Below are positions 24,553 to 53,161 of a stretch of DNA of 64,000 nucleotides, in pieces. The stretch lies in assembly GCA_000378025.1 (NCBI GenBank), contig KB899087.1, positions 4,982,001-5,046,000 of the forward strand, written 5' to 3'. Numbering within the stretch: position 1 is the first letter of the stretch; each line of letters opens with the position of its first letter. The notes beneath the pieces were generated by a model. The model was given only the letters and a program-made list of their open reading frames with translations. It did not search any database and was not told the DNA's origin. The stretch comes from Xanthobacteraceae bacterium 501b (GTDB lineage Bacteria; Pseudomonadota; Alphaproteobacteria; Rhizobiales; Xanthobacteraceae). Made by a program: the position numbers and the translations under genes.

Positions 24553-25482
24553 ATGTTCCGAATCGATTCCCCCTATCCCCGCGACATGGTTGGCTATGGC
24601 CGCACCCCGCCGGACCCGAAATGGCCGGGCGGCGCCCGGATCGCGGTGCAGTTCGTCATCAATTACGAGGAGGGCGGCGAGAACTGCATCCTGCATGGCG
24701 ATGCCGCCTCCGAGGCGTTTCTGTCGGAGATCGTCGGCGCCCAGCCCTGGCCGGGGCAGCGGCACATGAACATGGAGTCGATCTACGAATATGGTTCGCG
24801 CGCCGGCTTCTGGCGGCTCTGGCGGCTGTTCACCTCGCGCGGCCTTCCGGTCACGGTCTATGGGGTGGCGACCGCGCTGGCGCGTAACCCGGAAGCCGTC
24901 GCCGCCATGAAGGAGGCCGAGTGGGAGATCGCCAGCCACGGGCTGAAATGGATCGACTACCGCAACCATTCCTATGCGGCGGAGAAGGCCGATTTCGAGA
25001 CCGCGCTACGCCTGCACACCGAGATCACCGGCGAGCGCCCGCTCGGCTGGTACACCGGGCGCACTTCCGAGCATACGCGCCGCATCGTCATGGAGGAGGG
25101 CGGCTTCCTCTATGATTCCGACATCTATTCCGATGATTTGCCGTTCTGGGTCGAGGGGCCGCGCGGGCCGCATCTGTCCATTCCCTACACGCTCGACGCC
25201 AATGACATGCGCTTCGCCATCCCCGCCGGCTTCGACCATGGCGAGCCGTTCTTCGCCTATCTGCGCGACAGTTTCGACGTGCTCTACGCCGAGGGGGCCG
25301 ACGCGCCGAAGATGATGAGCGTCGGCCTGCATTGCCGTCTCGCCGGGCGGCCGGGGCGGTTTCTCGCGCTGCAGCGCTTCCTCGACCACATCGCCCGCCA
25401 CGACCATGTGTGGGTGCCGCGACGGATCGACATCGCCCGGCACTGGCACCAACATCACAAGCCGTCCCCAAAGCCGGAGTGA
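24553..25482 (+). CDS. puuE: Polysaccharide-deacetylase-fold allantoinase PuuE-like
   Basis: The protein is 309 aa. It matches the cofactor-independent allantoinase PuuE rather than a chitin deacetylase: PRDMVGYGRTPPDPKWPGGARIAVQFV, NYEEGGENCILHGD, EIASHGLKWIDY, GWYTGRTSEHTRR, LPFWV, MSVGLHCRLAGRPGR. It would hydrolyse (S)-allantoin to allantoate in purine breakdown. No other ureide gene is visible in the window, so the pathway link is from family resemblance only. It lies 4 bp upstream of the mliC-like gene. Confidence 0.85.
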   Translation: MFRIDSPYPRDMVGYGRTPPDPKWPGGARIAVQFVINYEEGGENCILHGDAASEAFLSEIVGAQPWPGQRHMNMESIYEYGSRAGFWRLWRLFTSRGLPVTVYGVATALARNPEAVAAMKEAEWEIASHGLKWIDYRNHSYAAEKADFETALRLHTEITGERPLGWYTGRTSEHTRRIVMEEGGFLYDSDIYSDDLPFWVEGPRGPHLSIPYTLDANDMRFAIPAGFDHGEPFFAYLRDSFDVLYAEGADAPKMMSVGLHCRLAGRPGRFLALQRFLDHIARHDHVWVPRRIDIARHWHQHHKPSPKPE

Positions 25483-32392: not shown

Positions 32393-32416
32393 TGGTATTT
32401 GGCATTAGGTATACCA
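32393..32416. promoter_or_regulatory. GntR-type operator-like site upstream of the 42-aa ORF
   Basis: TGGTATTTGGCATTAGG shares its first ten bases (TGGTATTTGG) with the reverse complement of the site at 48189, and the sequence goes on into GGTATACC. It lies about 60 bp upstream of the small ORF at 32472. It is a candidate outlier member of the oxalate GntR operator set. Confidence 0.4.
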
Positions 32417-32662: not shown

Positions 32663-33558
32663 TCAGGCGGCAGCGCGGCCCTTCAGGACCTCGACCAGCG
32701 TCTTGCCGAGGCGCGCGGGGGAGGGGGAGACCACGATTCCGGCCTCTTCCATCGCCGCGATCTTGTCCTCGGCGCCGCCCTTGCCGCCTGAGATGATGGC
32801 GCCGGCATGGCCCATGCGGCGGCCGGGGGGAGCCGTGCGGCCGGCGATGAAGCCGACCATGGGCTTCTTGCGGCCGCGCTTGGCCTCGTCCTTGATGAAC
32901 TGGGCCGCTTCTTCCTCGGCCGAGCCGCCGATCTCGCCGATCATGACGATCGATTCGGTGGCGTCATCGGCCAGGAACATCTCCAGCATGTCGATGAACT
33001 CGGTGCCCTTGACCGGATCGCCGCCAATGCCGACGGCGGTGGTCTGGCCCAGGCCCTCCTGCGAGGTCTGGAACACCGCCTCATAGGTCAGCGTGCCGGA
33101 GCGCGAGACGACGCCGACCGAGCCCTTCTTGAAGATGTTGGCCGGCATGATGCCGATCTTGCACTCGCCGGCGGTGACGATGCCGGGGCAGTTGGGGCCG
33201 ACGAGACGGGACTTGGAACCGTCCAGCGCCCGGCGCACCTTCACCATGTCGAGCACCGGAATGCCCTCGGTGATGCAGACAATGAGCGGGATTTCCGCCG
33301 CGATCGCCTCGCAGATGGCATCCGCCGCGCCCGGGGGCGGGACATAGATCACCGAGGCATCGGCGCCGGTCTTGTCGCGCGCCTCGGCGACGGTGTCGAA
33401 CACCGGCAGGCCGAGATGGACCGAGCCGCCCTTGCCCGGCGAAGTGCCGCCGACCACCTGCGAGCCATAGGCCATGGCCTGCTCGGAGTGGAAGGTGCCG
33501 TTCTTGCCGGTGAAGCCCTGGGTGATGATCTTGGTGTTCTTGTTGATGAGAATGGACA

Positions 33559-33559
<1 letters not shown>
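32663..33559 (-). CDS. sucD: Succinyl-CoA synthetase, alpha subunit
   Basis: The protein is 298 aa starting at 33559 ([21 protein letters not shown]). Its ATG overlaps the sucC stop by one base. It has the CoA-binding Rossmann domain ([16 protein letters not shown]), [19 protein letters not shown] and the phosphohistidine region [12 protein letters not shown]. With SucC it interconverts succinyl-CoA and succinate in the TCA cycle. Confidence 0.96.
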
Positions 33560-34758
<1,199 letters not shown>

Positions 34759-34891: not shown

Positions 34892-35665
34892 CTACTGCAC
34901 GAATGTGTTGCTGAGCGTCCCGATGCCCTCGATCACGATGTCCACCGTGTTGGTCGGGGCCTTCATCACGCCGACTCCCACCGACGTGCCGCAGCAGATG
35001 ATGTCGCCGGGGTTCAGCGTCATATCGTGCGAAATGCGGCTCACCAGTTGGTGCGCCGAGAACACCATGTCGCTGATCGGGTAGCGCTGGCGCTCGTCGC
35101 CATTGAGCACGGTGCAGACGACGAGACTGGCCGGATCGACCTCGGTCGCCACCACGGGCCCGAACGGGCCGAAGCCGTCGAAGCTCTTGGCCCGCACCCA
35201 TTGGGCGAAGGTGGCGTCCTTGTTGATGATGTCGGCGGCGGTGATGTCGTTCACGCAGGTGTAGCCGAAGATGTACGCGCCCGCCTCGTCCTCGGAGACG
35301 GCAGTCGCCTTCTTGCCGATGACGATGCCGAGTTCGCCCTCATAGACGACCTTGCCGTCATAGGAGGCCGGCCGGTGCACGGTGGCGCCGGGATTGGTGA
35401 GGCAGGAGCCGGCTTTCAGCAGATAAAGCGGATCAGCCGGAACGGGCGAATTGAGCTTCGCCGCCAGGGCATGGAAGTTGTTCCACAGCGCGATGATCTT
35501 GGTCGGCTCCGTCGGGGCGAGGAGATCGACCTCGGAGAGCGCGATGCGCTCTCCGGTCGGCGTGGCGCCATTGAACATGTCGCCGCTATGGACGGTGATG
35601 GTGTTGCCCTCAAGCGTGCCGAAGCCGGCCGCGCCCGAGCGCTGGTAACGAACCCAGTGTGCCAT
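34892..35665 (-). CDS. Fumarylacetoacetate hydrolase (FAH) superfamily protein
   Basis: The protein is 257 aa. Family motifs are [25 protein letters not shown] (metal-binding E-x-E), [25 protein letters not shown], and [12 protein letters not shown]. Members hydrolyse, decarboxylate or hydrate 2-oxoacids such as oxaloacetate. It is 12 bp downstream of the PanE-like gene and shares its promoter, where a 17-bp oxalate-regulon operator candidate lies. A role in handling a 2-oxoacid from glyoxylate or oxalate metabolism is inferred; the substrate is open. Confidence 0.82.
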
Positions 35666-35677
35666 GTGTCGCCGAAC

Positions 35678-36655
35678 TCAGTTGTAGCAGCCGGCGATCT
35701 GCGCGCGCTGGCGAACCAGGGCGAGCACGACGTCGAGGGTCGGGGTCGGGATTCCGGCGAGGCGGCCCATTTCCTGGACCACCGTGACCAGCGCGTCGAT
35801 CTCCATGGCGCGGGAGCGTTCGAGATCCTGCAGCATCGAGGTCTTGTGCGCGCCGACCGCGCCCGCGCCATCGATGCGGCGCTCCACGCCGACGCGGAAG
35901 TTCACGCCGGACTGGACGGCGATTTCCTGCGCCTCAAGCATCATCGCCTTGGCCACGGCACGGGTGCCGGGATCGGAGGCGATCACGTCGAGCGTGGCGT
36001 GGGTGAGGGCGCTGATCGGGTTGAAGCAGAGATTGCCCCACAGCTTCAGCCACAGTTCGTCGCGGATATTGGGCAGGACGGGCGCGCGCATGCCGCCGGC
36101 CGCGAAGGCTTCCGAGAGCTTGGTGGCGCGCTCGGTGATCTCGCCCGAGGGCTCGCCCAGCGGGAACTTGTCGCCATAGACGTGCTTGATGACGCCCGGC
36201 TCGACCACTTCGGTGGCGGGATAGACGATGCAGCCAATGGCGCGCTCGGGCCGCAGGCCCGCCCACTGCTTGCCACCGGGATCGACGCTCTCCAGCGTCT
36301 TGTTCTCCAGATGGTCGCCATGCTTGTAGTAGTACCAGTAGGGCACGCCGTTGACGGCAGTGACCACGGCGGTGTCGTTACCCAGCAGCGGCTGCATGGC
36401 ATCGACCACGCCCGGCACCGAATGGGCCTTCAGGGCGACGATGACATAGTCCTGCGGGCCAAGCTCGGCCGGGTTGTCGGAGCAGGGAATGTGCTCGACA
36501 CGCTCCTCGCCGTCGATGAGCAGCTTGAGGCCGTTCTTCTTCATGGCTTCGAGATGGGCGCCACGGGCAACGAGGCTGACATCGACGCCCGCCCGCTTGA
36601 GCTGAACACCGACATAACCGCCGATCGCGCCGGCACCATAGATGCAGACCTTCAT
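35678..36655 (-). CDS. panE: Ketopantoate-reductase family enzyme, candidate oxalyl-CoA reductase (PanE2-like)
   Basis: The protein is 325 aa. The NADPH-binding motif is CIYGAGAIGGYVGVQLKRAG, with TAVNGVPYWYYYKHG and the catalytic-lysine region LKLWGNLCFNPISALTHATLD of PanE/ApbA proteins. By annotation it would be 2-dehydropantoate reductase. However, a PanE homologue (PanE2) has been reported to act as oxalyl-CoA reductase in oxalate-growing Methylobacterium. Here the gene sits in an oxalate/glyoxylate island and carries the same 17-bp operator as the gntR-oxc-frc operon. I favour reduction of oxalyl-CoA to glyoxylate; pantothenate synthesis is the alternative. Confidence 0.85.
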   Translation of the reverse strand: MKVCIYGAGAIGGYVGVQLKRAGVDVSLVARGAHLEAMKKNGLKLLIDGEERVEHIPCSDNPAELGPQDYVIVALKAHSVPGVVDAMQPLLGNDTAVVTAVNGVPYWYYYKHGDHLENKTLESVDPGGKQWAGLRPERAIGCIVYPATEVVEPGVIKHVYGDKFPLGEPSGEITERATKLSEAFAAGGMRAPVLPNIRDELWLKLWGNLCFNPISALTHATLDVIASDPGTRAVAKAMMLEAQEIAVQSGVNFRVGVERRIDGAGAVGAHKTSMLQDLERSRAMEIDALVTVVQEMGRLAGIPTPTLDVVLALVRQRAQIAGCYN

Positions 36656-36704: not shown

Positions 36705-36721
36705 TGGTATTTTGTATGCCA
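36705..36721. promoter_or_regulatory. GntR operator candidate upstream of panE-FAH operon
   Basis: TGGTATTTTGTATGCCA is an inverted repeat, TGGTAT/ATGCCA around five bases. Read on the other strand (TGGCATACAAAATACCA) it is identical in 16 of 17 positions to the site upstream of gntR at 48189. It is 50 bp upstream of the panE-like start, where an operator or activator site would be expected. Confidence 0.72.
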
Positions 36722-37025: not shown

Positions 37026-37916
37026 TCAGGCGTCCGGCGCGACGGTGTGATTTGCCATCAATTCCAGAGCCTTGACCAGGGCGGAGTGATCCCAGGCCGA
37101 GCCGCCATTGGCGGCGCAGGTGCTGAAAAGCTGCTGCGCCAGCGCGGTCGAGGGAAGCGCCATCTGCATCTGACGCGCGCCGTTCAGGGCGAGGTTCAGG
37201 TCCTTCTGGTGCAGCTCGATGCGGAAGCCCGGGTTGAAGGTGCGGTTGATCATCCGCTCGCCATGGACTTCCAGAATGCGCGAATTGGCAAATCCGCCCA
37301 TCAGCGCCTGGCGCACCTTGGCCGGATCGGCGCCCGCCTTGGAGGCGAACAGCAGCGCCTCGCCGACGGCGAGGATGTTCAGCGCGACGATGATCTGGTT
37401 GGCGACCTTGGTGGTCTGGCCATCGCCATTGCCACCGACGAGGGTGATGTTCTTGCCCATCTTCTCGAACAGCGGCTTCACCGTGGCGAAGGCGCCCTCC
37501 GGACCGCCGACCATGATGGTGAGCGAGGCGGCCTTGGCGCCGACTTCGCCACCCGACACCGGGGCGTCGAGATAGTCGCAGCCGAGCTCGTTGATCTTCT
37601 TGGCGAACTCCTTCGTCTCGACCGGAGCGATCGAGCTCATGTCGACGACGATCTTGCCGGCCGAGAGGCCCGCCGCGATGCCGTTCTCGCCGAACAGGGC
37701 GGCGGCGACATGCGGGGTATCCGGCACCATGGTGATGATGATGTCGGCGTTCTTGGCGACTTCCGTGCCGCTGGCGCAGGCGACGCCGCCCTTGCCCGTC
37801 AGCTCGGCCGGGACCGGCTTGACGTCATAGAGATAGAGCGTGTGGCCGGCGTCGATGAGATGACCGGCCATGGGCGCGCCCATGATGCCGAGACCGACAA
37901 ATCCAACATTCGCCAT
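37026..37916 (-). CDS. garR: 2-hydroxy-3-oxopropionate (tartronate semialdehyde) reductase
   Basis: The protein is 296 aa. The N-terminal NAD(P) motif is VGFVGLGIMGAPMAGHLIDAG; DAPVSGGEVGAKAASLTIMVGG and the catalytic-lysine region GNGDGQTTKVANQIIV are typical of the beta-hydroxyacid dehydrogenases GarR/GlxR. It reduces tartronate semialdehyde to D-glycerate. It follows gcl and hyi in the same direction with a 51-bp gap to hyi, so the operon encodes glyoxylate to glycerate. Confidence 0.93.
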   Translation of the reverse strand: MANVGFVGLGIMGAPMAGHLIDAGHTLYLYDVKPVPAELTGKGGVACASGTEVAKNADIIITMVPDTPHVAAALFGENGIAAGLSAGKIVVDMSSIAPVETKEFAKKINELGCDYLDAPVSGGEVGAKAASLTIMVGGPEGAFATVKPLFEKMGKNITLVGGNGDGQTTKVANQIIVALNILAVGEALLFASKAGADPAKVRQALMGGFANSRILEVHGERMINRTFNPGFRIELHQKDLNLALNGARQMQMALPSTALAQQLFSTCAANGGSAWDHSALVKALELMANHTVAPDA

Positions 37917-37967: not shown

Positions 37968-38753
37968 TCACGCCACGCCGGCGAGTTCCTTGAGCCAGCC
38001 GAGGCCTGCCCCGGTTTCGCCCTTCGGCTTGTATTCGCAGCCCACCCAGCCCTCGTAGCCGATGGCGTCGAGATGGCGGAACAGGAAGGGGTAGTTGATC
38101 TCGCCGGTGCCGGGCTCGTTGCGGCCGGGATTGTCGGCGAGCTGGATATGCGCGATCTGGGCGAGGTTCGCCTCGATGGTGCGGGCGAGATCGCCCTCCA
38201 TGATCTGCATGTGGTAGATGTCGTACTGGATGAAGAGGTTGTCGGAGCCGACCTCTTCGATGATCGCCTTCGCCTGCTTCGTGTAGTTGAGGAAGAAGCC
38301 GGGAATGTCGCGGGTGTTGATCGGCTCGATCAGCAGCTTGAGGCCGGCTTCCTTGATCTTCGGCGCGGCGAACTTCAGGTTGTTGACGAAGGTGTTGTGC
38401 AGCACTTCGCGATCGGCCCCGGCGGGCACGATGCCGGCGAGGATGTTGACCTGCGGGCAGCCCAAAGCGGTGGCGTACTCGATCGCCTTGTCGACGCCGG
38501 CGCGGAACTCGTCGACCCGCTCGGGCAGGATCGCGATGCCGCGCTCGCCGCCGCCCCAATTGCCGGCCGGCAGATTGTGCAGGACCTGCTGAAGATTATT
38601 GGCCTTCAGCTTGGCGACCAGTTCCTCGACCGGAAAGTCGTAGGGGAACAGGTATTCGACGCCGGTAAAGCCGGCGGCGGCGGCCTTCTCGAAACGATCG
38701 AGGAAGGGCACCTCGTTGAACAGCATGGTGAGATTGGCGGCAAAACGGGGCAT
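37968..38753 (-). CDS. hyi: Hydroxypyruvate isomerase
   Basis: The protein is 261 aa of the xylose-isomerase-like TIM-barrel family: FAANLTMLFNEVPFLDRFEKAAAAGFTGVEYLFPY, LIEPINTRDIPGFFLNYT, IQYDIYHMQIMEGDL and GCEYKPKGET are characteristic of Hyi. It interconverts hydroxypyruvate and tartronate semialdehyde. It lies between gcl and garR. Confidence 0.93.
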   Translation of the reverse strand: MPRFAANLTMLFNEVPFLDRFEKAAAAGFTGVEYLFPYDFPVEELVAKLKANNLQQVLHNLPAGNWGGGERGIAILPERVDEFRAGVDKAIEYATALGCPQVNILAGIVPAGADREVLHNTFVNNLKFAAPKIKEAGLKLLIEPINTRDIPGFFLNYTKQAKAIIEEVGSDNLFIQYDIYHMQIMEGDLARTIEANLAQIAHIQLADNPGRNEPGTGEINYPFLFRHLDAIGYEGWVGCEYKPKGETGAGLGWLKELAGVA

Positions 38754-38936: not shown

Positions 38937-40700
38937 TCACGCCTTGGCGGCGCCTTCCAGCGGCAGGTCGAGCACGTCTTCGAACTCGTTCACCGCGTCG
39001 ATCTCGGTGCCCATGGCGATGTTGGTGACGCGCTCAAGGATGAACTCCATCACAACAGGCACCTGGTGCTCCTGCATCAGCGCCTTGGCGCGGACGAAGG
39101 CGTCCTTGAACTCGTTCGGCGAGGAGACACGGACCGCCTTGCAGCCAAGGCCCTCGGCCACTGCCACATGGTCGACGCCGTAGCCGGCATTTTCCTCGGC
39201 ATTGATGTTGTCGAAGGCGAGCGAGACTTCAAAATCCATGTTGAAGCCGCGCTGCGCCTGACGGATCAGCCCGAGATAGGAGTTGTTCACCACCACATGG
39301 ATGTAGGGCAGCTTGTGCTGGGCGCCCACCGCCAGCTCCTCGATGAGGAACTGGAAGTCATAATCGCCCGACAGCGCCACGATCTCCGCGTCCGGGTCCG
39401 CCGCGCGCACGCCGAGCGCCGCCGGCAGGGTCCAGCCGAGCGGGCCGGCCTGGCCGCAATTGATCCAGTTGCGCGGCTTGTAGACATGCAGCATCTGCGC
39501 GCCGGCGATCTGGCTGAGGCCGATGGTCGAGACATAGCGGGTGTCGCGGCCGAAGGCCTCGTTCATCTCTTCATAGACGCGCTGGGGCTTCAGCGGCACA
39601 TTGTCGAAATGCGTCTTGCGCAGCATGGTCTTCTTGCGGTCGAGGCATTCCTTGGCCCAGGCGGAGCGGTCCTTCAGCTTGCCGGCGGCCTTGTATTCGC
39701 GCGCCACGTCGAGGAACAGGTCGAGCGCGGCGCCGGCATCGGAGACGATGCCGAGATCGGGGCCAAAGACGCGGCCGATCTGGGTCGGCTCGATGTCGAC
39801 GTGAATGAACTTGCGGCCCTTGGTGTAGACCTCGACCGAGCCGGTGTGGCGGTTCGCCCAGCGATTGCCGATGCCGAACACGAAGTCCGAGGCCAGCATG
39901 TTGGCATTGCCATAGCGGTGCGAGGTCTGCAGGCCGCACATGCCGGCCATCAGGTCGTGGTCGTCAGGGATGGTGCCCCAGCCCATCAGGGTGGGGATGA
40001 CAGGCACGCCGGTCAGTTCGGCGAATTCGACCAGCTTGTCGGAAGCGTCCGCATTGATGATGCCGCCGCCGGAGACGATGAGCGGGCGCTCGGCCTCGTT
40101 CAGCATGGCGATGGCCTTCTCGGCCTGCTTGCGCGTCGCCTTGGGCTTGTAGACTTCGAGCGGGGAATAGGTCTCCTCGTCGAACTCGATCTCGGCCAGC
40201 TGGACGTCGATCGGCAGGTCGATCAGCACCGGGCCGGGGCGGCCCGAGCGCATGACGTGGAAGGCCTGCTGGAACACCATCGGCACCAGCGCCGGCTCAC
40301 GCACCAGCACCGCCCATTTGGCGACCGGCTTGGCGATGGATTCGATGTCGACCGCCTGGAAGTCTTCCTTGTAGAGCCGCGCGCGCGGGGCCTGGCCGGT
40401 GATGCACAGGATCGGGATCGAATCGGCCGAGGCGGAATAGAGGCCGGTGATCATGTCGGTGCCGGCGGGGCCTGACGTGCCGATGCACACGCCGATATTG
40501 CCGGCCTTGGCGCGGGTGTAGCCTTCGGCCATGTGCGAGGCGGCCTCGACATGGCGCGCCAGGATGTGGCGCGTCTGGCCATAGGCGCGCATCGCGGAAT
40601 AGAGCGGATTGATCGCGGCACCGGGCACGCCGAAGGCGGTGGTGACGCCTTCCATTGCGAGAATCCGGATCGCGGCATCGACGGCACGCATCTTGGCCAT
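38937..40700 (-). CDS. gcl: Glyoxylate carboligase (tartronate-semialdehyde synthase)
   Basis: The protein is 587 aa, the normal Gcl length. It is a TPP- and FAD-binding enzyme that joins two glyoxylates with loss of CO2 to tartronate semialdehyde. The N-terminus has [16 protein letters not shown] and [16 protein letters not shown], where the usual catalytic Glu of the superfamily is replaced as is typical for Gcl. The TPP motif is [21 protein letters not shown]...[15 protein letters not shown]. It heads gcl-hyi-garR. Three TTCCG-type repeats lie 170-240 bp upstream. Confidence 0.95.
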
Positions 40701-41083: not shown

Positions 41084-41902
41084 ATGAACCAGGACGTCCC
41101 GACCGTGCGCCGCCGTGGCCGCCCTTCCTCCGCCACCGGCACCGAGGGCGGCGGCGAGGTGCAGTCGCTCGACCGCGCCATCGCGCTCTTGGAAGTGCTG
41201 GCGCTCTCCGACGGGCTGACGCTGAGCGAGGTGGCGCGCGCCGCCGAACTGCCGACCTCCACCGTGCATCGGCTGCTGACCACGCTGGAGCGGCGTGGGC
41301 TGGTCGGCCATGACGCGGCGACCGGGCTGTGGATGGTCGGCATCGGGCTGTTCCGCGTCGGCTCGGCCTATTTGCGCATCCGCAAGCTGCCCGAGATCGC
41401 CCGCTCGCTGCTGCGCGAGCTCTCGCACGGGGTGAACGAGACGGTGAACCTGTCGCTGATCGAGGGGCCGCATCTGGTCTGCGTGGCGCAGGTGGAAAGC
41501 CATGCGGCGGTGCGGGCGTTCTTCCGCATCGGCGGCGATCTGCCGATCCACGCCTCGGGCGGCGGCAAGGCCATCCTCTCCGCGATGAACCCGGAGGCGC
41601 GGCGCGCCTGGCTGGGCGGCGACCAGCTGCAGCGCTTCACCGAGCATACCCATGTTAGCCGGCGCGCCTTGCAGGCGGACCTCGCCGAGATCGCCGAGCG
41701 CGGCTTTTCCATCGACGATGAGGAGCACACGCCGGGCATGCGCTGCGTCGCGGCGGCGGTGCTGGACGAATGGCGCGAGCCGGTGGGGGCGATCTCGATC
41801 TCCGCCCCGACCGTGCGGATGCTCCCTGAGCGCATCGCCGACCTCGGCGCCCGCGTGCGCGAGGCCGCGCGGCGGCTGACGACGCAGTATTCCGGGCGGT
41901 AA
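41084..41902 (+). CDS. IclR-family transcriptional regulator of glyoxylate genes
   Basis: The protein is 272 aa. The winged helix is VQSLDRAIALLEVLALSDGLTLSEVARAAELPTSTVHRLLTTLERRGLV. The C-terminal effector domain (FFRIGGDLPIHASGGGKAILS, GFSIDDEEHTPGMRCVAAAVLDEWREPVGAISIS) matches AllR/IclR, whose members sense glyoxylate or pyruvate. It is divergent from gcl with an operator cluster between, so control of gcl-hyi-garR by glyoxylate is likely. Confidence 0.88.
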   Translation: MNQDVPTVRRRGRPSSATGTEGGGEVQSLDRAIALLEVLALSDGLTLSEVARAAELPTSTVHRLLTTLERRGLVGHDAATGLWMVGIGLFRVGSAYLRIRKLPEIARSLLRELSHGVNETVNLSLIEGPHLVCVAQVESHAAVRAFFRIGGDLPIHASGGGKAILSAMNPEARRAWLGGDQLQRFTEHTHVSRRALQADLAEIAERGFSIDDEEHTPGMRCVAAAVLDEWREPVGAISISAPTVRMLPERIADLGARVREAARRLTTQYSGR

Positions 41903-42261: not shown

Positions 42262-43512
42262 TCAGACCGCCTTGGCGTCGTGCAGGGCGACGATTTCTTC
42301 CTGCGAGTAGCCGAGATCGGCGAGCACTTCATTGGTGTGCTGGCCGAGCAGCGGCGAGGCGGTGATCTCGACTTCGACGTCCGAGAACTTGATCGGCGAA
42401 CCGACGGTCAGATACTTGCCGAGCTTGGGGTGATCGACCTCGACCACGGTGCCGCTCTTGCGCAGCGACGGGTCGTTGGCGATTTCCTTCATCGACAGCA
42501 CCGGCGCGCAGGGGATGTCGAACTTGCGCAGGATGTCGATGGCCTCGAACTTCGTCTTGTCGGCGAGCCAGGACTCGATGAAGGCGAAGATGTCGAAGAT
42601 CTTGTCCTGACGGGCTTCGGCGGTGTTGTAGGCCGCGTCGTCGATCCACTCCGGCTTGCCCAGCGCCTTGCAGATCGGCGCCCAGGCATGGCCCTGGATG
42701 GTGAAGTAGATATAGGCGTTGGGATCGGTCTCCCAGCCCTTGCACTTCAGCACCCAGCCCGGCTGGCCACCGCCGCCGGCATTGCCGCCGCGCGGAACCA
42801 CGTCCGAGAACTCGCCATGCGGGTACTGGGGGTATTCTTCGAGATAGCCGAGAGCGTCGAGGCGCTGCTGGTCGCGCAGCTTGACGCGGCAGAGGTTGAG
42901 CACCGAATCCTGCATCGACACGGCGACCTTCTGGCCCTTGCCGGTCTTCACCTTCTGGTGCAGCGCGGTCAGGATGCCGATGGCGAGGTGCATGCCGGTG
43001 TTCGAGTCGCCGAGAGCGGCGGCCGACACGGTGGGGGGGCCATCCCAGAAGCCGGTGGTGGAGGCGGCGCCGCCCGCGCACTGCGCGACGTTCTCGTAGA
43101 CCTTCAGGTCCTCATAGGCGTGGCCTTCCGAGAAGCCCTTCACCGAGGCGAGGATCATGCCGGGGTTGAGCGACTGGATGTGCTCCCAGGTGAAGCCCAT
43201 GCGGTCGAGCGCGCCGGGGCCGAAATTCTCGACCATCACGTCCGATTCCTTGATCAGCTTGGTCAGGACTTCCTTGCCCTGCGCCGTCTTGGTGTCGAGC
43301 GTCAGCGAACGCTTGTTGGAGTTCAGCATGGTGAAATACAGCGCGTCGGCGTCCTTGACATGACGCAGCTGCGAGCGCGTGACGTCGCCCGCGCCGGGGC
43401 GCTCGACCTTGATCACGTCGGCGCCGAACCAGGCAAGAAGCTGCGTGCAGGCCGGACCGGCCTGAACGTGCGTGAAATCGATGATCTTAATACCTTCGAG
43501 GGGCTTAGACAT
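42262..43512 (-). CDS. frc: Formyl-CoA:oxalate CoA-transferase, canonical copy
   Basis: The protein is 416 aa starting at 43512 ([20 protein letters not shown]). It is a class III CoA-transferase moving CoA from formyl-CoA to oxalate. The catalytic Asp169 ([11 protein letters not shown]) and the glycine-rich loop [12 protein letters not shown] with four glycines match the classic Frc enzyme. It is the last gene of the minus-strand unit gntR-oxc-frc2-PAS-frc and is followed by a strong terminator. With oxalyl-CoA decarboxylase it forms the oxalate-to-formate cycle. Confidence 0.93.
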
Positions 43513-43680
43513 TGTAGTCGACTTCCCTTTTAGCGTTAACAGTCCGGACGGAGGCTCACCCTGCCGCCGGATTGAGATTTCCCATCCCTCGCGGATGGAA
43601 ACCGTACTTCTCCCCATGCGCCCCGGCACTGTTACGGCGCCGGCTTGCATCTCCCAGGGGGTGATCGACTTCGGAACGAC

Positions 43681-44254: not shown

Positions 44255-45532
44255 TCACTCGGCCGCCAACCGCACCGGCTCGCCGACCGCGCCTGAGGCC
44301 TTGATGCGGGCGATCTCGTCGCCACCCAGGCCGAGGACACCGGCGAGAATTTCCTCGGTGTGCTCGCCCAGCAGCGGCGAGCGCTCGACCTCGACGTCGT
44401 TGTCCGACAGCTTGATCGGGTTGCCGACGGTCAGGTACTTGCCGCGCGTGGGGTGGTCGATCTCCACCAGCGTGCCGGTCGCGTAGAGCGACTGGTCCTC
44501 GGCGATCTCCTTCATCGAGAGCACCGGGCCGCAGGGAATGTCGACCTTGTTGAGGATTTCCATCGCCTCGAACTTGGTGTGGGCCATGGTCCACGATTCG
44601 ACGCGGTGGAAGATCTCGTTGAGATGGGGCAGGCGCGCCGCCGGCGTGGCGTAGTTCGGATCGGTCTTCCAGTCCGGCTCGCCGATGACGTCGCAAATCT
44701 TCCCCCAGACCGGGGCCTGGGTGATGAAATAGATATAGGCGTTGGGATCGGTCTCCCAGCCCTTGCACTTCAGGATGCGCCCGGGCTGACCGCCACCGGA
44801 ATCATTACCGGCGCGCGGCACCGAATCGCCGAAGGGCAGGCCCTCGCCGAACTGGCTGTATTCGCGCAGCGGGCCGCGCTCCAGGCGCTGCTGGTCGCGC
44901 ATCTTCACGCGGCAGAAATTCAGCACCGCGTCCTGCATGGCGCAGAGCACCTTCTGGCCGCGGCCGGTCAGCGTGCGCTGGTAGAGCGCCGTGACGATGC
45001 CGAGGGCGAGGTGCAGGCCGGTGCCGCTGTCGCCGATCTGGGCGGCGGTGACGAGCGGCAGGCCGTCGCGGAAACCCGTGGTCGAGGCCGAGCCGCCGGT
45101 GCACTGGGCGACGTTCTCATAGACCTTGCAATCCTCGAACGGGCCGGGGCCGAAGCCCTTCACCGAGGCGAGGATGATGCGCGGGTTGAGCTCCTGGATG
45201 CGCTCCCAGGTGAAGCCCATGCGGTCGAGCGCGCCGGGGGCGAAATTCTCGACCATCACGTCGCAGATCTTCACCAGCTCCTCGAGGACCTTCTTGCCCT
45301 CGGGGTTCTTGGTGTCGAGCGTGATGGAGCGCTTGTTGGAGTTCAGCATCGTGAAGTAGAGGCTGTCCGCATTGGGGACATCGCGCAGCTGGGCGCGGGT
45401 GACATCACCCTCGCCGGGACGCTCTACCTTGATCACATCGGCCCCGAACCACGCGAGAAGCTGCGTGCAGGTGGGGCCGGACTGAACATGGGTGAAATCG
45501 AGGACGCGAACGCCGTCCAATGCCTTGCCCAT
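44255..45532 (-). CDS. Formyl-CoA transferase paralogue
   Basis: The protein is 425 aa starting [20 protein letters not shown]. It is closely similar to the downstream Frc, with the catalytic Asp168 (QIGDSGTG). Its mobile loop reads [12 protein letters not shown], three glycines preceded by Ser instead of four glycines, and the C-terminal half has diverged. It probably transfers CoA to oxalate or a related dicarboxylate from formyl- or succinyl-CoA. It is 103 bp downstream of oxc and upstream of the PAS gene. Confidence 0.88.
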
Positions 45533-45635: not shown

Positions 45636-47375
45636 TTACTTCTTCTTCACGACGCTCTGCGGGTTGAGGCTGCCGATATTGCCGCTCTCGCTGCCGGCGG
45701 CCGGGTCGATCACGGCGTTGATGAGGGTCGGCTTGCCGCTGTCCATCGCCTCGTCCACGGCGCGCTTGAGCTCGTCCGGGGTGGTGACGTGGACGCCGAC
45801 GCCGCCGAAGGCTTCCATCATCTTGTCGTAGCGCGAGTCGGCGACGAAGACGGTGGTGCCGGGGTCGCGACCGGTCGGGTCGGTGTCGGTGCCGCGATAG
45901 ATGCCGTTATTGTTGAAGATAACGACGCAGACCGGCAGGTTGTAGCGGCAGATGGTCTCGACTTCCATGCCGGAGAAGCCGAAGGCGCTGTCGCCCTCGA
46001 CCGCCAGCACCGGCTTGCCGGTTTCCACCGCCGCGCCGATGGCGAAGCCCATGCCGATGCCCATCACGCCCCAGGTGCCGACGTCCAGGCGCTTGCGCGG
46101 CTGGTACATGTCGATCACGCCGCGGGCGAGGTCGAGCGTGTTGGCGCCCTCATTGACGAGGATCGCGTCCGGACGCTCCTTGATGACCTGCTTGAGAGCG
46201 CCGAGCGCCGAATGGAAATCCATCGGCGTGGAGTTCTTCAGCAGGCGCTGGGCCATCTTGCCGATATTGACTTCCTTGCGGGCGTTGATCGCGTCGATCC
46301 ACTCGGCCGCAGGCGCCTTCCAGCCGGTCTTGATGCCCTCGTTCAGGGCCTCGATGACCGAACCGATGTCGCCGACCAGCGGCGCCGCGATCTCGACATT
46401 CGAGTCCATTTCCTTGGGCTCGATGTCGATCTGGATGAACTTCTTCGGGGCGTCGCCCCAGGTCTTGCCCTTGCCGTGCGACAGCAGCCAGTTGAGGCGC
46501 GCGCCGACGAGGACGACGACGTCCGAATCCTTCAGCACCGTCGAACGGGCGGCGCCGGCCGAGAGCGGATGGTTGTCGGGCAGCAGGCCCTTGGCCATCG
46601 ACATCGGCAGGAAGGGGATGCCCGAGGTTTCGATGAAGGAGCGGATCTCCGCATCGGCCTGCGCGTAAGCGGCGCCCTTGCCGAGGATGATCAGCGGCTT
46701 CTTGGCCGACTTCAGCACGTCGAGCGCGCGGGTGACGGCGGAGGGGGAGGGGAGCTGCGCCGGGGCGGCGTCGATCACCTTGACCAGCGACTTGGCGCCG
46801 GCATCGGCATCCATCACCTGCGAGAACAGCTTTGCCGGCAGGTCGAGATAGACGCCGCCGGGACGGCCGGAGACCGCCGCGCGGATGGCGCGGGCGACGC
46901 CGATGCCGATATCGGCCGCGTGCAGCACGCGGAAGGCCGCCTTGCAGAGCGGCTTGGCAATGGCGAGCTGGTCCATCTCCTCATAGTCGCCCTGCTGGAG
47001 GTCGACGATCTCGCGCTCGGACGAGCCGGAGATGAGGATCATGGGGAAGCAGTTGGTGGTGGCGTTCGCCAGGGCGGTGAGGCCGTTGAGGAACCCCGGC
47101 GCCGAGACGGTGAGGCACACGCCCGGCTTCTTGGTCAGAAAGCCGGCGATGGCGGCGGCGTTGCCTGCGTTCTGCTCATGGCGGAACGAGACGACGCGGA
47201 TGCCTTCGGCCTGCGCCATGCGACCCAGATCCGTAATCGGGATCCCGGGTACGCCGTAAATGGTGTCGATATCGTTCAGTTTGAGCGCATCGATGACCAG
47301 GTGGAAGCCGTCCGTGAGCTCCTGCTCGGTCTCGGCGGCGGCATTCACGTCAATAACCTGTGCGACTGCGGACAT
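45636..47375 (-). CDS. oxc: Oxalyl-CoA decarboxylase
   Basis: The protein is 579 aa and TPP-dependent, converting oxalyl-CoA to formyl-CoA and CO2. N-terminal motifs are [26 protein letters not shown] (catalytic Glu) and [13 protein letters not shown]. The TPP motif is [22 protein letters not shown]...FNNNGIYRG. The C-terminus is Lys-rich (SVVKKK), as in known Oxc. It is 43 bp downstream of a GntR gene in the same direction, so both are expected in one transcript. Confidence 0.95.
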
Positions 47376-47418: not shown

Positions 47419-48144
47419 CTAATCTAGGTCTACGTGGTTCTCGACATGCTCAGCGAGCCGGATCGTATGGTCTCTGACCAGACGTTCGGCGCGGTCCGCG
47501 TCCCGCGCCTCGAGAGCAAGAATGATCTCCAGATGGTCGGATGCCGAACGCTGCGCCCGGTCCATCTCAAAGATCGTGCGGTGGCGGATGGCCCGTACAT
47601 GGAAGAACAGGTTTTCCGTCATCGCCACGAGCAGCGAAGAGCCGCTCAGCCGGATCAGCGCCTGGTGAAACGCGATATTCGCACTGGAATATTCGTCGCA
47701 CCGGTCGCGCTCGATCCGCGCCAGATCGAACTTCTTGAACAACGTCCTAAGCTCGGCGATCGCCTCGTCGCTTGCGCGCTGCGTGGCGAGGCGGGCCGCC
47801 ATGCTTTCCAGCGCCGCCCAGGCCTCGATCATCTCGATGATCTCGGCCTTGGAACGGCGAACAACCATAATTCCCCGCCGGGGTACGGCGCGGAGCAGGC
47901 CCTCCTGCTCCAGCATCGCGACCGCCTCGCGGATCGGCGTCCGGCTTGCGCCGAGACGCTCGGAAATATCCCGCTCGTCGAGCAGCATCGGCTCGCTCGA
48001 GCCGTAGATGTTCATGTGCGTGATGGCTTCCTTGAGAGCGGCATAGGCCTTGCTCTTGAAGCTCTCCTTGGCCGGCAGGCGCTCGATGGTCAGGCCATTC
48101 TCACCGCTTTGCCAGTGCTTGCTCACAACTGCCTTGCTGTTCAC
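47419..48144 (-). CDS. GntR/FadR-family regulator heading the oxalate operon
   Basis: The protein is 241 aa. The winged helix is SKAYAALKEAITHMNIYG...LDERDISERLGASRTPIREAVAMLEQEGLLRAVPRRGIMVV, and the FCD effector domain holds metal/ligand His residues (SANIAFHQALIRL, RSASDHLEIILALEARD). It is the first gene before oxc. A 17-bp inverted repeat 45 bp upstream suggests autoregulation and control of oxc-frc. It is clearly related to the second GntR at 48553. Confidence 0.9.
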   Translation of the reverse strand: MNSKAVVSKHWQSGENGLTIERLPAKESFKSKAYAALKEAITHMNIYGSSEPMLLDERDISERLGASRTPIREAVAMLEQEGLLRAVPRRGIMVVRRSKAEIIEMIEAWAALESMAARLATQRASDEAIAELRTLFKKFDLARIERDRCDEYSSANIAFHQALIRLSGSSLLVAMTENLFFHVRAIRHRTIFEMDRAQRSASDHLEIILALEARDADRAERLVRDHTIRLAEHVENHVDLD

Positions 48145-48188: not shown

Positions 48189-48205
48189 TGGCATACCAAA
48201 TACCA
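48189..48205. promoter_or_regulatory. GntR operator candidate upstream of gntR-oxc-frc operon
   Basis: TGGCATACCAAATACCA, an inverted repeat TGGCAT-N5-ATACCA, is 45 bp upstream of the gntR start. It differs at a single base from the site upstream of the panE-FAH operon at 36705. Confidence 0.75.
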
Positions 48206-48321
48206 ACATGTCAATTCGCTTGTCCCCGTCGCGGGGCTGCCTCCGGCTCCTTTTCCTCACCTTCGCCGTGCGCTTTCTCAGCTCGTCCTGACCTTCAGTA
48301 AGGAGGGTGGAACGCACTTGC

Positions 48322-49861: not shown

Positions 49862-51178
49862 ATGACATCTGACGCAACGGCATCCGTCAATAAAAAGCGC
49901 TGGCTGCAGCTCGTGTTCGGCGTGATCTGCATGTGCATGATCGCCAACATGCAGTATGGCTGGACCTTCTTCGTCAATCCGATGCAGGAAGCCCATGGCT
50001 GGGATCGCGCCGCGATCCAGGTGGCGTTCTCCATCTTCATCGTCACCGAGACCTGGCTGGTGCCGGTCGAGGGCTGGTTCGTCGACAAATACGGCCCGCG
50101 CGTCGTGGTGCTGTTCGGCGGCGTGCTTTGCGGCCTGGCCTGGGTCATCAACTCCTATGCCGACACGCTGACCCTGCTTTATGTCGGTGCGGCGCTGGGC
50201 GGTATCGGTGCGGGCGCGGTGTATGGCACCTGCGTCGGTAACTCGCTGAAGTGGTTCCCGGATCGTCGCGGCCTTGCCGCCGGCATCACCGCCGCCGGCT
50301 TCGGCGCCGGCTCGGCGCTGACCGTGATCCCGATCCAGAACATGATCAAAAATCAGGGCTATGAAGCCGCGTTCTTCTATTTCGGTGTCGCCCAGGGCGT
50401 GGTGATCACGCTGATCGCGCTCTTCCTCGCCGCGCCGAAGAAGGAGCAGATCGCCGCCTTCGCCGCCAAGGCGATCGCCAAGGTCTCGCAGTCGGCCCGC
50501 GATTTCGCGCCGAAGGAGATGCTCTCCACCCCGCTGTTCTGGGTGATGTATGCGATGTTCGTCATGATGGCCGCTGGCGGCCTGATGGCGACCGCCCAGC
50601 TCGGCCCGATCGCCAAGGATTTCGGCATCGCCGATATTCCGGTGAGCCTGATCGGCATCACCCTGCCGGCGCTGACCTTCGCCGCTGCGATCGACCGCGT
50701 GCTGAACGGCCTTACCCGTCCGTTCTTCGGCTGGGTGTCGGACCAGATCGGCCGTGAGAACACCATGTTCGTCGCCTTCGCCATCGAGGGCGTCGGCATC
50801 TACGCGCTGAGCGTGCTCGGCCATAACCCGGTGCTGTTCGTCATCCTCACCGGCCTGGTGTTCTTCGCCTGGGGCGAGATCTACTCGCTGTTCCCGGCCA
50901 TGTGCGGCGACGCCTTCGGCTCGAAGTTCGCCACCACCAATGCCGGCCTGCTCTACACCGCCAAGGGTACGGCGGCGCTGATCGTGCCGTTCACCAGCGT
51001 CATCACCACCATGACGGGCAGCTGGCACGCTGTGTTCATCACCGCTGCGGCCCTGAACATCGTCGCCGCCGTGATGGCGCTGGCCGTGCTCAAGCCGCTG
51101 GCGTCGGCCCATGGTCGGCGCGCGGCTGCCGCCGCGGCTGCGGCGAAGGGGTCGTCCAAGGTGATGGCGGCCGAATAG
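49862..51178 (+). CDS. oxlT: OFA-family MFS transporter (oxalate:formate antiporter-like), copy 1
   Basis: The protein is 438 aa with 12 predicted helices and the OxlT-type signature. The loop between helices 2 and 3 has GWFVDKYGPRVVVLFGG, helix 4 GTCVGNSLKWFPDRRGLAAGITAAGFGAGSA, then DRVLNGLTRPFFGWVSDQIGR (Arg of the substrate path) and LLYTAKGTAALIVPF (the essential Lys of OxlT). It should exchange external oxalate for internal formate. An alanine-rich tail ends the protein. A strong terminator follows. Confidence 0.9.
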   Translation: MTSDATASVNKKRWLQLVFGVICMCMIANMQYGWTFFVNPMQEAHGWDRAAIQVAFSIFIVTETWLVPVEGWFVDKYGPRVVVLFGGVLCGLAWVINSYADTLTLLYVGAALGGIGAGAVYGTCVGNSLKWFPDRRGLAAGITAAGFGAGSALTVIPIQNMIKNQGYEAAFFYFGVAQGVVITLIALFLAAPKKEQIAAFAAKAIAKVSQSARDFAPKEMLSTPLFWVMYAMFVMMAAGGLMATAQLGPIAKDFGIADIPVSLIGITLPALTFAAAIDRVLNGLTRPFFGWVSDQIGRENTMFVAFAIEGVGIYALSVLGHNPVLFVILTGLVFFAWGEIYSLFPAMCGDAFGSKFATTNAGLLYTAKGTAALIVPFTSVITTMTGSWHAVFITAAALNIVAAVMALAVLKPLASAHGRRAAAAAAAAKGSSKVMAAE

Positions 51179-51835: not shown

Positions 51836-53161
51836 TTGAGTACGTCCAAGACGCTGGCCGCCGTCGGGCCTGGCCAGGATTATTCGGAAAGCCGCCGTTG
51901 GCTTCAGCTTGTTGTCGGCGTCGTCTGCATGGTGGCGACCGCGAACATCCAGTACGCCTGGACCCTGTTCGTTCCTGAAATTCAGGAGACCTTCGGCTGG
52001 GAGCGCGCGTCGATCCAGATCGCGTTCACCATCTTCGTTCTGGTGCAGACCTGGCTCGCGCCGATCGAAGGCTATTTCATCGACAAGCTTGGCCCCCGCC
52101 TCATGGTCGCCTTCGGCGCCCTGTTCATCGGCGCGGCCTGGGTGATCAATTCGCAGGCCACCAGCCTGATGGGCTTCTACCTCGGCGCCGCCATTGGCGG
52201 TATCGGCGTGGGCTCGATCTACGCGACCTGCATCAACAACGCGCTCAAGTGGTTCCCGGATCGTCGCGGCCTCGCCGTCGGCCTGACGGCGGGCGGCTAT
52301 GGCGCCGGCTCGGCCGCCACCATCCTGCCGATCGCCGCGATGATCGACAGCGCCGGCTTCCAGGAGACCTTCTTCTTCTTCGGCCTGCTGCAGGGCGGTC
52401 TCGCCTTCGTTGCCGCCTGGTTCCTGCGCTCGCCGAAGGCGGGTGAGGTCAAGGCCTCCACCAAGCTCAACCAGAGCCGCCGCGACTACACGCTCGGCGA
52501 AGCCATGAGCACCAAGCTTTTCTGGCTCATGTTCCTGATGTTCATCTGCGTCGTCACCGGCGGCATGATGGCGGTGGCCCAGCTCGGCGTCATCGCGCAG
52601 GATCTCGGCGTGAAGGAGTTCCAGGTCGACCTGTACTTCTTCGTCATGGCCGCGCTGCCGCTGGCCCTGATGCTCGACCGCGTCATGAACGGCATCTCGC
52701 GTCCGCTGTTCGGCTGGATCTCGGACCATATCGGTCGTGAGAAGACGATGGTCATCGCCTTCACCCTCGAAGGCCTCGGCATCATCGCGCTCGGCGCCTT
52801 CGGCCACAATCCGTGGGCGTTCCTCATCCTCTCCGGCGTGGTGTTCCTCGCCTGGGGTGAAGTCTACTCGCTGTTCTCGGCTCTCGCCGGCGACGCCTTC
52901 GGCACCAAGCACATCGGCAAGATCTACGGCGTGCTCTACACCGCCAAGGGTATCGGCGCGCTGTTCGTTCCGGTCGGCAACCTGCTGATGGAAGCGACCG
53001 GCACCTGGTCGACCGTGCTCTACACGGTTGCCGGCATGGACCTGTTCGCGGCCTTCCTGGCGATCGCGGTCCTGCCGCGCACGCTCAAGGCGCATGTGGC
53101 CCGTTCGGCCGCCATGCCGCCGGCGGTGGACAAGACCAGCACCGCCACGGCGCATGCCTGA
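51836..53161 (+). CDS. oxlT: OFA-family MFS transporter (oxalate:formate antiporter-like), copy 2
   Basis: The protein is 441 aa from a TTG start at 51836 with GAGAGGAG upstream; no ATG is placed well. It has 12 helices and is closely similar to copy 1, with GYFIDKLGPRLMVAFG, NALKWFPDRRGLAVGLTAGGYGAGSA, DRVMNGISRPLFGWISDHIGR and GVLYTAKGIGALFVP (the OxlT lysine). The two copies may differ in affinity or substrate (oxalate, formate, other dicarboxylates). A terminator follows. Confidence 0.9.
   Translation: MSTSKTLAAVGPGQDYSESRRWLQLVVGVVCMVATANIQYAWTLFVPEIQETFGWERASIQIAFTIFVLVQTWLAPIEGYFIDKLGPRLMVAFGALFIGAAWVINSQATSLMGFYLGAAIGGIGVGSIYATCINNALKWFPDRRGLAVGLTAGGYGAGSAATILPIAAMIDSAGFQETFFFFGLLQGGLAFVAAWFLRSPKAGEVKASTKLNQSRRDYTLGEAMSTKLFWLMFLMFICVVTGGMMAVAQLGVIAQDLGVKEFQVDLYFFVMAALPLALMLDRVMNGISRPLFGWISDHIGREKTMVIAFTLEGLGIIALGAFGHNPWAFLILSGVVFLAWGEVYSLFSALAGDAFGTKHIGKIYGVLYTAKGIGALFVPVGNLLMEATGTWSTVLYTVAGMDLFAAFLAIAVLPRTLKAHVARSAAMPPAVDKTSTATAHA

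Follow-up and report, generated by a model that had tools for sequence, protein, structure and literature searches.

The PanE/ApbA-family protein encoded at 35678..36655 on the minus strand of a 64,000-nucleotide stretch of an Ancylobacter-like genome (hereafter the window; C1:4982001-5046000 of a two-contig genome, 99.98% complete) very probably acts in this organism as an NAD(P)H-dependent oxalyl-coenzyme A (oxalyl-CoA) reductase of the PanE2/ApbA2 type. The FAH-superfamily protein encoded beside it (34892..35665, minus strand), a conserved PanE partner from a subfamily without the His-Glu dyad and with an LWNN...K motif, is likely to be a dedicated partner of the oxalyl-CoA route. Both readings are drawn from comparisons of genes and predicted proteins. 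An earlier note on this DNA had placed the two genes 12 bp apart beside gcl-hyi-garR and proposed the first as a candidate oxalyl-CoA reductase; both open reading frames (325 and 257 aa) lie as it described, on the minus strand, and its proposal is supported by the orthology of PanE to close relatives of tested enzymes and by its gene partners across the class.

Orthology and fold of the window PanE

In published work, ApbA2 of C. necator and PanE2 of M. extorquens are 51% identical and 66% similar, and deletion of apbA2 lengthened the doubling time of C. necator on oxalate from 6.5 to 10 h (PMC7486775); a further source reports a putative oxalyl-CoA reductase PanE2 as characterised (PMC8411744). 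We judged orthology through close relatives of the tested proteins, from C. metallidurans and M. bullatum, and not through the tested proteins themselves. Between the PanE homologues of these two species, identity is 50.9% and similarity 66.4%, which equals the published divergence of ApbA2 and PanE2, and we therefore count the window PanE, with 69.5% identity to the C. metallidurans homologue and 46.9% to that of M. bullatum, as an ortholog of the tested enzymes. In a quick-search tree of 49 PanE rows (every fourth ligase-linked locus, every third unlinked locus and a hand-picked set), the window PanE falls into a group of eight rows linked to formyl-CoA transferase (Frc) or oxalyl-CoA decarboxylase (Oxc), which includes C. 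metallidurans and has a support of 91 in the Shimodaira-Hasegawa-like approximate likelihood ratio test (SH-aLRT).

The protein has the Pfam domains ApbA and ApbA_C, and its AlphaFold model (mean predicted local distance difference test score, pLDDT, 96) matches 3ghy best, with a template modelling (TM) score of 0.95. Residues N102, K204, N208, N212, S273 and E285, which we take to be the equivalents of the catalytic residues of the ketopantoate reductase PanE of E. coli, are unchanged in 29/29 PanE relatives, and the window PanE thus has both the fold and the catalytic residues of a ketopantoate reductase. Like M. extorquens PanE2 and C. necator ApbA2, as represented by their M. bullatum and C. 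metallidurans homologues, it combines the same catalytic residues with nearby oxalate genes, and it appears to be a further member of an already known type of oxalyl-CoA reductase.

NAD(P) transhydrogenase genes follow a short distance downstream of PanE in Azospirillum ramasamyi and Skermanella rosea (L094 12001-16802 and L095 12001-17600), an arrangement that fits an NADPH-consuming reductase.

PanE gene partners across the Alphaproteobacteria

A sample of 289 alphaproteobacterial genomes was searched with limits of E 1e-68 for PanE, 1e-150 for Oxc and 1e-62 for FAH. PanE matches occur in 101 genomes and Oxc in 13, which at first seems contrary to a role of PanE in oxalate metabolism, but the gene neighbourhoods reverse this impression. 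Neighbourhoods were read for 104 of the 132 PanE matches (outside this set stand the window itself, 24 weaker matches and the three loci L106, L107 and L108, which are linked to FAH but lack a ligase of 50% identity next to PanE), and the loci were classed by their identity to the window PanE in one BLAST alignment. Among the 75 loci of at least 53% identity, an oxalate-CoA ligase homologue lies on the same strand within 400 bp in 57 and Frc adjoins PanE in 2, giving an enzyme expected to form oxalyl-CoA in 59/75, as Frc is in the window; below 53% identity the ligase is found in 8/29, and the median gap between PanE and the ligase is 6 bp over all 65 ligase-linked loci. When two of these ligases were compared with solved structures, their best relatives were the oxalyl-CoA synthetases 6qjz, 5ie0 and 8aff (best E 8e-129). 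They score 420-434 bits to plant oxalate-CoA ligases and at most 220 bits to any non-oxalate ligase, the best of the latter being malonyl-CoA synthetase and FadD13 at 213-220 bits.

Because the ligase is present in some neighbourhoods and Frc in others, the same PanE family appears to be paired with two sources of oxalyl-CoA, namely CoA transfer by Frc and ATP-driven ligation. Like the alphaproteobacterial units of PanE with an oxalate-CoA ligase (AAE3/Pcs60 type), the window has PanE beside an expected oxalyl-CoA maker; unlike them, its genome holds no oxalate-CoA ligase at E 1e-70, and oxalate activation in this organism would proceed via the CoA-transferase. The PanE family, present in 101/289 sampled alphaproteobacteria, bears the name of a vitamin B5 enzyme in the models used, while the gene partners of its closer members point to oxalate assimilation, and renaming it would alter how oxalate use is read from genomes.

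The name itself is part of the case for PanE being an ordinary ketopantoate reductase that stands by chance in an oxalate cluster, or that does both jobs, an explanation that we consider highly improbable. The window PanE exceeds the cut-off of NCBIfam 'subfamily' models named 2-dehydropantoate 2-reductase, including NF005089, a subfamily that it has in common with the PanE of genome G238; it and its relatives keep the catalytic Lys, Glu, Asn and Ser of ketopantoate reductase without exception; and it is the sole ApbA_C protein of a genome that has panB and panC. The earlier note had suggested a search for a second panE near panB/panC, and would have taken a sole panE together with pantothenate auxotrophy of its mutants as a refutation. 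On this point the outcome is divided: there is no second gene, and panE is separated from panB and panC by about 3 Mb or more on the map, but many relatives manage without any such protein. PanB is strongly matched in 58 of 71 genomes sampled from the order; in 24 of these 58 the ApbA_C match is absent or weaker than 1e-10 (wholly absent in 17), so that pantoate presumably often comes from another reductase and the sole-ApbA_C status does not by itself make PanE the pantothenate enzyme. IlvC can stand in for PanE, as is known in Buchnera and Corynebacterium according to PMC4306246. The housekeeping role was rejected as the main reading on these ApbA_C-less relatives, on the lack of PanB or PanC near PanE homologues (0/104 loci) and on the oxalate partners, with the ligase adjoining the 57 close homologues counted above and an operator-like site common to panE and the oxc side of the cluster.

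The two-gene unit of ligase and PanE (L115, L117, L119, L121-L124, L128 and others) is widespread in the alphaproteobacteria, mostly with only a few bases between the genes and mostly without Oxc, and may represent an oxalate assimilation route that the models used leave unlabelled. Tripartite tricarboxylate (TctA-like) transporters adjoin this unit in L122 (4882-6411), L124 (4894-6375) and L137 (6014-7528), and these may carry oxalate. A relative of 35% identity lies next to the FAH-PanE pairs of L045 and L078, and in L084 next to FAH.

A conserved FAH-superfamily partner of PanE

The FAH protein of the window shares 98-99% identity with its counterparts in Ancylobacter vacuolatus and A. rudongensis. 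Its loci were read for the best 80 of 272 relatives, which are hence close ones and some of which are ended by contig edges; a PanE of at least 40% identity lies within 300 bp of FAH in 65 of them and no more than 3 kb away in 74. The loci show Frc or Oxc in 37/80, and any of Frc, Oxc, OxlT and Gcl in 64/80. In the class-wide sample FAH occurs in 13/289 genomes, and 13/13 have PanE vs 101/289 overall (P 7e-7; 12/12 and P 2e-6 without the window's own genome, both values calculated without control for genome size). Oxc is present in 4/13 of them vs 13/289 overall (P 0.001; 3/12 and P 0.01 without the own genome), and a ligase or Frc in 12/13. The earlier note's pairing of FAH with PanE therefore proved to be a conserved one.

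The pair also persists where the genes are arranged differently. FAH and PanE are separated by 9.1 kb in the oxalate cluster of C. metallidurans and by 3.9 kb in that of Caballeronia; in M. bullatum and G238, whose PanE proteins are 99% identical, they are adjacent in the opposite order, oxlT-FAH-panE-ligase. Unlike these PanE2 homologue loci, which carry the oxalate CoA ligase, the window has Frc/Oxc and gcl-hyi-garR as neighbours. Of the 11 genomes without Frc, Oxc or ligase beside FAH, PanE is adjacent in 10 and the remaining one is ended by a contig edge; a Frc homologue of 68-79% identity is encoded elsewhere in 9/11 (G357-G359, G361-G364, G053 and G104; not G360 or G168). More distant FAH genes, at 50-57% identity and away from oxalate genes, occur in G109, G176, G232, G235 and G252, all of which have a ligase-PanE unit elsewhere in the genome. 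The FAH contigs of G096 and G006 fall outside this reading of contexts.

Neither Oxc nor Gcl qualifies as an obligate partner of FAH, the former being present in only 4/13 FAH genomes and the latter not being in view at the FAH-PanE pairs of M. bullatum and G238. A single clade of oxalate-linked FAH was likewise not found in the FAH tree (50 of 102 rows, with L102 classed as linked on a PanE 1 kb away): of the six unlinked members, five fall into a subclade with Methylobacterium and the sixth stands beside a Burkholderiales pair. In the open-access literature searched, we found no description of a role of this FAH in oxalate operons. Since the gene sits in the operon of the Methylobacterium PanE2 homologue, its job is directly testable in tractable strains.

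Active site of the FAH subfamily

The protein scores 183.7 bits with PF01557 against a cut-off of 23.9, with the Pfam domains FAA_hydrolase and Rv2993c-like_N, and has the fold and the divalent-metal ligands (E, E, D) of the FAH superfamily. We aligned 96 subfamily members, leaving aside identical proteins and the window copies L001, L008 and L096. In 96/96, the metal ligands E109, E111 and D140 and the lysine K160 are kept. The HxxE lid dyad is replaced in 96/96 by LWNN[FYS]xxx[AS]x[KR], with Leu, Ala, Met, Ser or Val for His and Lys (Arg in one) for Glu; 80 of the 96 rows came from a scan in which a peptide of the dyad segment was among six patterns, and the rows found otherwise agree. By comparison, 5/6 FAH paralogues from the same genome have NxxxHxxE, the sixth (L009) being uncovered at that segment. 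W61, N62 and R158 are invariant in the subfamily, as is K70 (Arg in one), and R158 is so in the subfamily only, not in the paralogues. The lid segment, residues 61-80, is where the structural model (pLDDT 88.6) is least certain.

FAHD1 and YisK, which are oxaloacetate decarboxylase-tautomerases of the FAH superfamily, share the fold, the metal ligands and the active-site lysine of the window FAH (TM by query length 0.68-0.72 to FAHD1 and 0.82-0.86 to YisK). Unlike them, the window FAH has the positions of the His-Glu dyad, R106 and Q109 replaced, and carries W61, N62, R158 and K70 instead. With FAHD1 numbering taken from literature passages and mapped onto the subfamily by ourselves, the R106 position, which serves substrate binding in FAHD1, is never Arg in the 96 members and is Arg in 6/6 paralogues, the Q109 position is Ile, Leu or Val in 96/96 and Gln in 5/6 paralogues, and of the FAHD1 set R106, Q109 and K123 only the lysine is kept, as K160 in 96/96. 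The nearest solved structures are 3rr6, 3qdf, 4pfz and 2dfu, mycobacterial and Thermus proteins of the '2-hydroxyhepta-2,4-diene-1,7-dioate isomerase' type with 33-37% identity; 4pfz, unlike the window FAH, retains an NYxxHxxE motif, and we know of no oxalate context for these proteins.

In the FAHD1 work, the dyad is said to form upon ligand binding and to serve, it is thought, in activating the water used for hydrolysis, with the Lys and Asp thought to handle the enol; FAHD1 holds oxalate on Mg through its 1,2-dicarbonyl, and N-aryl oxalamic acids inhibit the enzyme (PMC8398924). Since the dyad is lost while the metal ligands and the lysine are kept, classical FAH hydrolysis by this subfamily is unlikely, and the enzyme may still act on a 2-oxo or 2-hydroxy acid bound to Mg. 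What would be new here, within a known superfamily, is a dyad-less FAH subfamily tied to the oxalyl-CoA reductase.

Possible roles of the FAH protein

We propose that the panE-FAH pair provides the assimilation step of the oxalate pathway. Frc would activate oxalate to oxalyl-CoA, Oxc would decarboxylate part of it for energy, and PanE would reduce the remainder with NAD(P)H. The chemistry of PanE, R-CO-COO- to R-CHOH-COO-, would make oxalyl-CoA a fitting 2-oxo acid substrate when R is S-CoA, and the product would be CoA-S-CH(OH)-COO-, the hemithioacetal of glyoxylate, which would split into CoA and glyoxylate; Gcl, Hyi and GarR would then convert glyoxylate towards glycerate. With the oxalyl or glyoxylyl head group bound on Mg2+, the FAH protein would act as a lyase that releases CoA from the hemithioacetal, a step that can also occur spontaneously. 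Ureidoglycolate lyase likewise expels a leaving group from a glyoxylate adduct, a parallel to this chemistry. The lyase step itself is possible, though we regard it as doubtful, and it is unlikely that oxalyl-CoA reduction is in full a two-enzyme reaction of PanE and a dyad-less, Mg-dependent FAH lyase that would form a new FAH class. For the explanation as a whole, in which PanE is the reductase and FAH its partner and a lyase, we see about an even chance, as a compromise among its parts.

The lyase would fit the presence of FAH only together with PanE in the sample, whatever the source of oxalyl-CoA, as well as the metal site that suits the head group and the lost dyad. Several observations weigh against the proposal. 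The ligase or Frc is not in view in 16/75 of the closer PanE loci, and the ligases pass no NCBIfam model, their top one being FadD7 fatty acid-CoA ligase, under its cut-off. The P values for FAH and PanE are uncorrected for genome size, and G168 has both genes and neither ligase nor Frc at the limits used. A Xanthobacter locus (L088) reads oxc-frc-frc-sucC-FAH with no PanE within the 20.8 kb examined, a possible counter-example to the lyase. We know of no FAH-family enzyme that sets a precedent for such a lyase step, and hemithioacetals of the glyoxylate-CoA type dissociate by themselves. FAH is also missing from 88/101 PanE genomes, although this absence is itself among the features that would fit the lyase.

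The main rival, which we consider rather unlikely, makes FAH an oxalate-tolerant metabolite-repair enzyme acting on enol-oxaloacetate or on oxalomalate, the adduct of glyoxylate and oxaloacetate. FAHD-type oxaloacetate tautomerases and decarboxylases are inhibited by micromolar oxalate, so that an oxalate-importing cell would need a working version: 50 uM oxalate lowered partly purified bovine OAT1 by more than 90%, and the IC50 (half-maximal inhibitory concentration) of oxalate for FAHD1 was 7 uM (PMC10825186, PMC8398924). YisK, a good structural match, has entries whose titles give oxalate (8sky) and the reaction product 4-hydroxy-2-oxoglutarate (8sut), the latter of which we infer to have derived from oxalomalate. 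A repair enzyme would also agree with the retention of the Lys and Asp thought to handle tautomerisation while the lid dyad is gone, and with the position of FAH directly before sucC, which lies within 1 kb of FAH in 21/80 loci, the number of Ancylobacter-type loci. It has to contend with the replaced R106 and Q109 positions and with the distribution of FAH, which tracks PanE (13/13) closer than Oxc (4/13) and is found in 0/4 Oxc genomes without PanE. Hydrolysis of oxalyl-CoA or another oxalyl thioester, a safety valve that frees CoA, is very unlikely. It would account for the co-occurrence of FAH with PanE regardless of the oxalyl-CoA source and for the way FAHD1 holds oxalyl compounds via Mg, as described in PMC8398924, but the dyad thought to activate water in FAHD1 is replaced throughout the subfamily, and the energy spent on activation would be wasted. 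Removal of a toxic 2-oxoacid, the example given in the earlier note, may be a further one among several options.

An operator-like site shared with the oxc side of the cluster

A 17-bp site, TGGCATACAAAATACCA, lies upstream of panE (36705..36721, minus strand), and a second perfect copy, TGGCATACCAAATACCA, lies before the GntR gene that precedes oxc (48189..48205, plus strand). When up to three mismatches are allowed, the pattern TGGYATRCNNAATACCA is matched 7 times in the window, at 6 places of which a palindromic one counts twice, vs 1.03 expected, and 0/100 shuffles reach 7; as the pattern was derived from these very sites, the count is somewhat favourable to it. What the earlier note had called an oxalate operator at panE is thus real as a shared sequence. 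The further copies have three mismatches at 48320, 51560 and 3862 and one mismatch at 32400. Upstream of panE, the site has zero mismatches in 21/21 Ancylobacter-type loci, 1 in Phyllobacterium, 2 in Azospirillum ramasamyi and 3 in Skermanella rosea, whereas every other locus tested has 4 or more. Since the site is common to panE and the oxc side, one regulator probably controls both panE-FAH and oxc, and the GntR protein would be the candidate binder.

The one-mismatch copy (32400-32416) lies in the gap past sucD, away from any oxalate gene promoter.

Other genes of the cluster

On the minus strand the genes read, in the order of transcription, GntR, oxc, frc2, frc1, gcl, hyi, garR, panE, FAH, sucC, sucD. 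The GntR gene (47419..48144, minus strand) encodes a GntR/FCD-family regulator. At least one NCBIfam model of the same name reaches its cut-off for Oxc (oxalyl-CoA decarboxylase, 45636..47375), the formyl-CoA transferases Frc2 (44255..45532) and Frc1 (42262..43518), Gcl (glyoxylate carboligase, 38937..40700), Hyi (hydroxypyruvate isomerase, 37968..38753) and GarR (tartronate semialdehyde reductase, 37026..37916), all on the minus strand; Hyi also passes the 2-oxo-tetronate isomerase model, with a marginally higher score. No NCBIfam cut-off was reached by the FAH protein or by the regulators of the window. Opposed to gcl is the gene of an IclR-family, BhcR-like regulator (41084..41902, plus strand; 308 bits, under the model cut-off of 350), and beyond the cluster lie a second GntR-like open reading frame and two MFS transporter genes on the plus strand. 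The first (49862..51178) encodes a probable oxalate/formate antiporter with 67% identity to an annotated oxlT of Azospirillum ramasamyi, and the second (51836..53161) is a more distant relative of these transporter genes, with 52-53% identity in Labrys loci.

SucC (succinyl-CoA synthetase beta, 33559..34758) and SucD (alpha, 32663..33559, with the start taken from the open reading frame translation), both on the minus strand, were named from sequence; 133 bp separate the end of FAH from sucC. SucC is the sole match in its own genome at E 1e-10, and the idea of SucCD as an oxalate-dedicated copy was rejected here for this reason. Genes for SucC of 75-77% identity are also found inside the oxalate clusters of L063, L086, L088 and L092, and sucC beside oxalate genes may serve to supply succinyl-CoA to a CoA-transferase. 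At 7 kb past sucD (24553-25482) lies a gene with 71% identity to the annotated allantoinase PuuE of A. ramasamyi, and a PuuE-like gene is in view in 10/21 Ancylobacter-type loci; glyoxylate is a product of allantoin breakdown too.

A different thiamine diphosphate (ThDP) enzyme stands beside Frc in L090 (15817-17439), L092 (20459-22168), L118 (1387-3078), L120 (4874-6595) and L044 (4943-6667). These enzymes have 24-27% identity to the window Oxc and at least 55% to the one of L120, whose top two NCBIfam models, both under cut-off, are acetolactate synthase and 2-hydroxyacyl-CoA lyase; they may represent either another kind of oxalyl-CoA decarboxylase or a carboligase.

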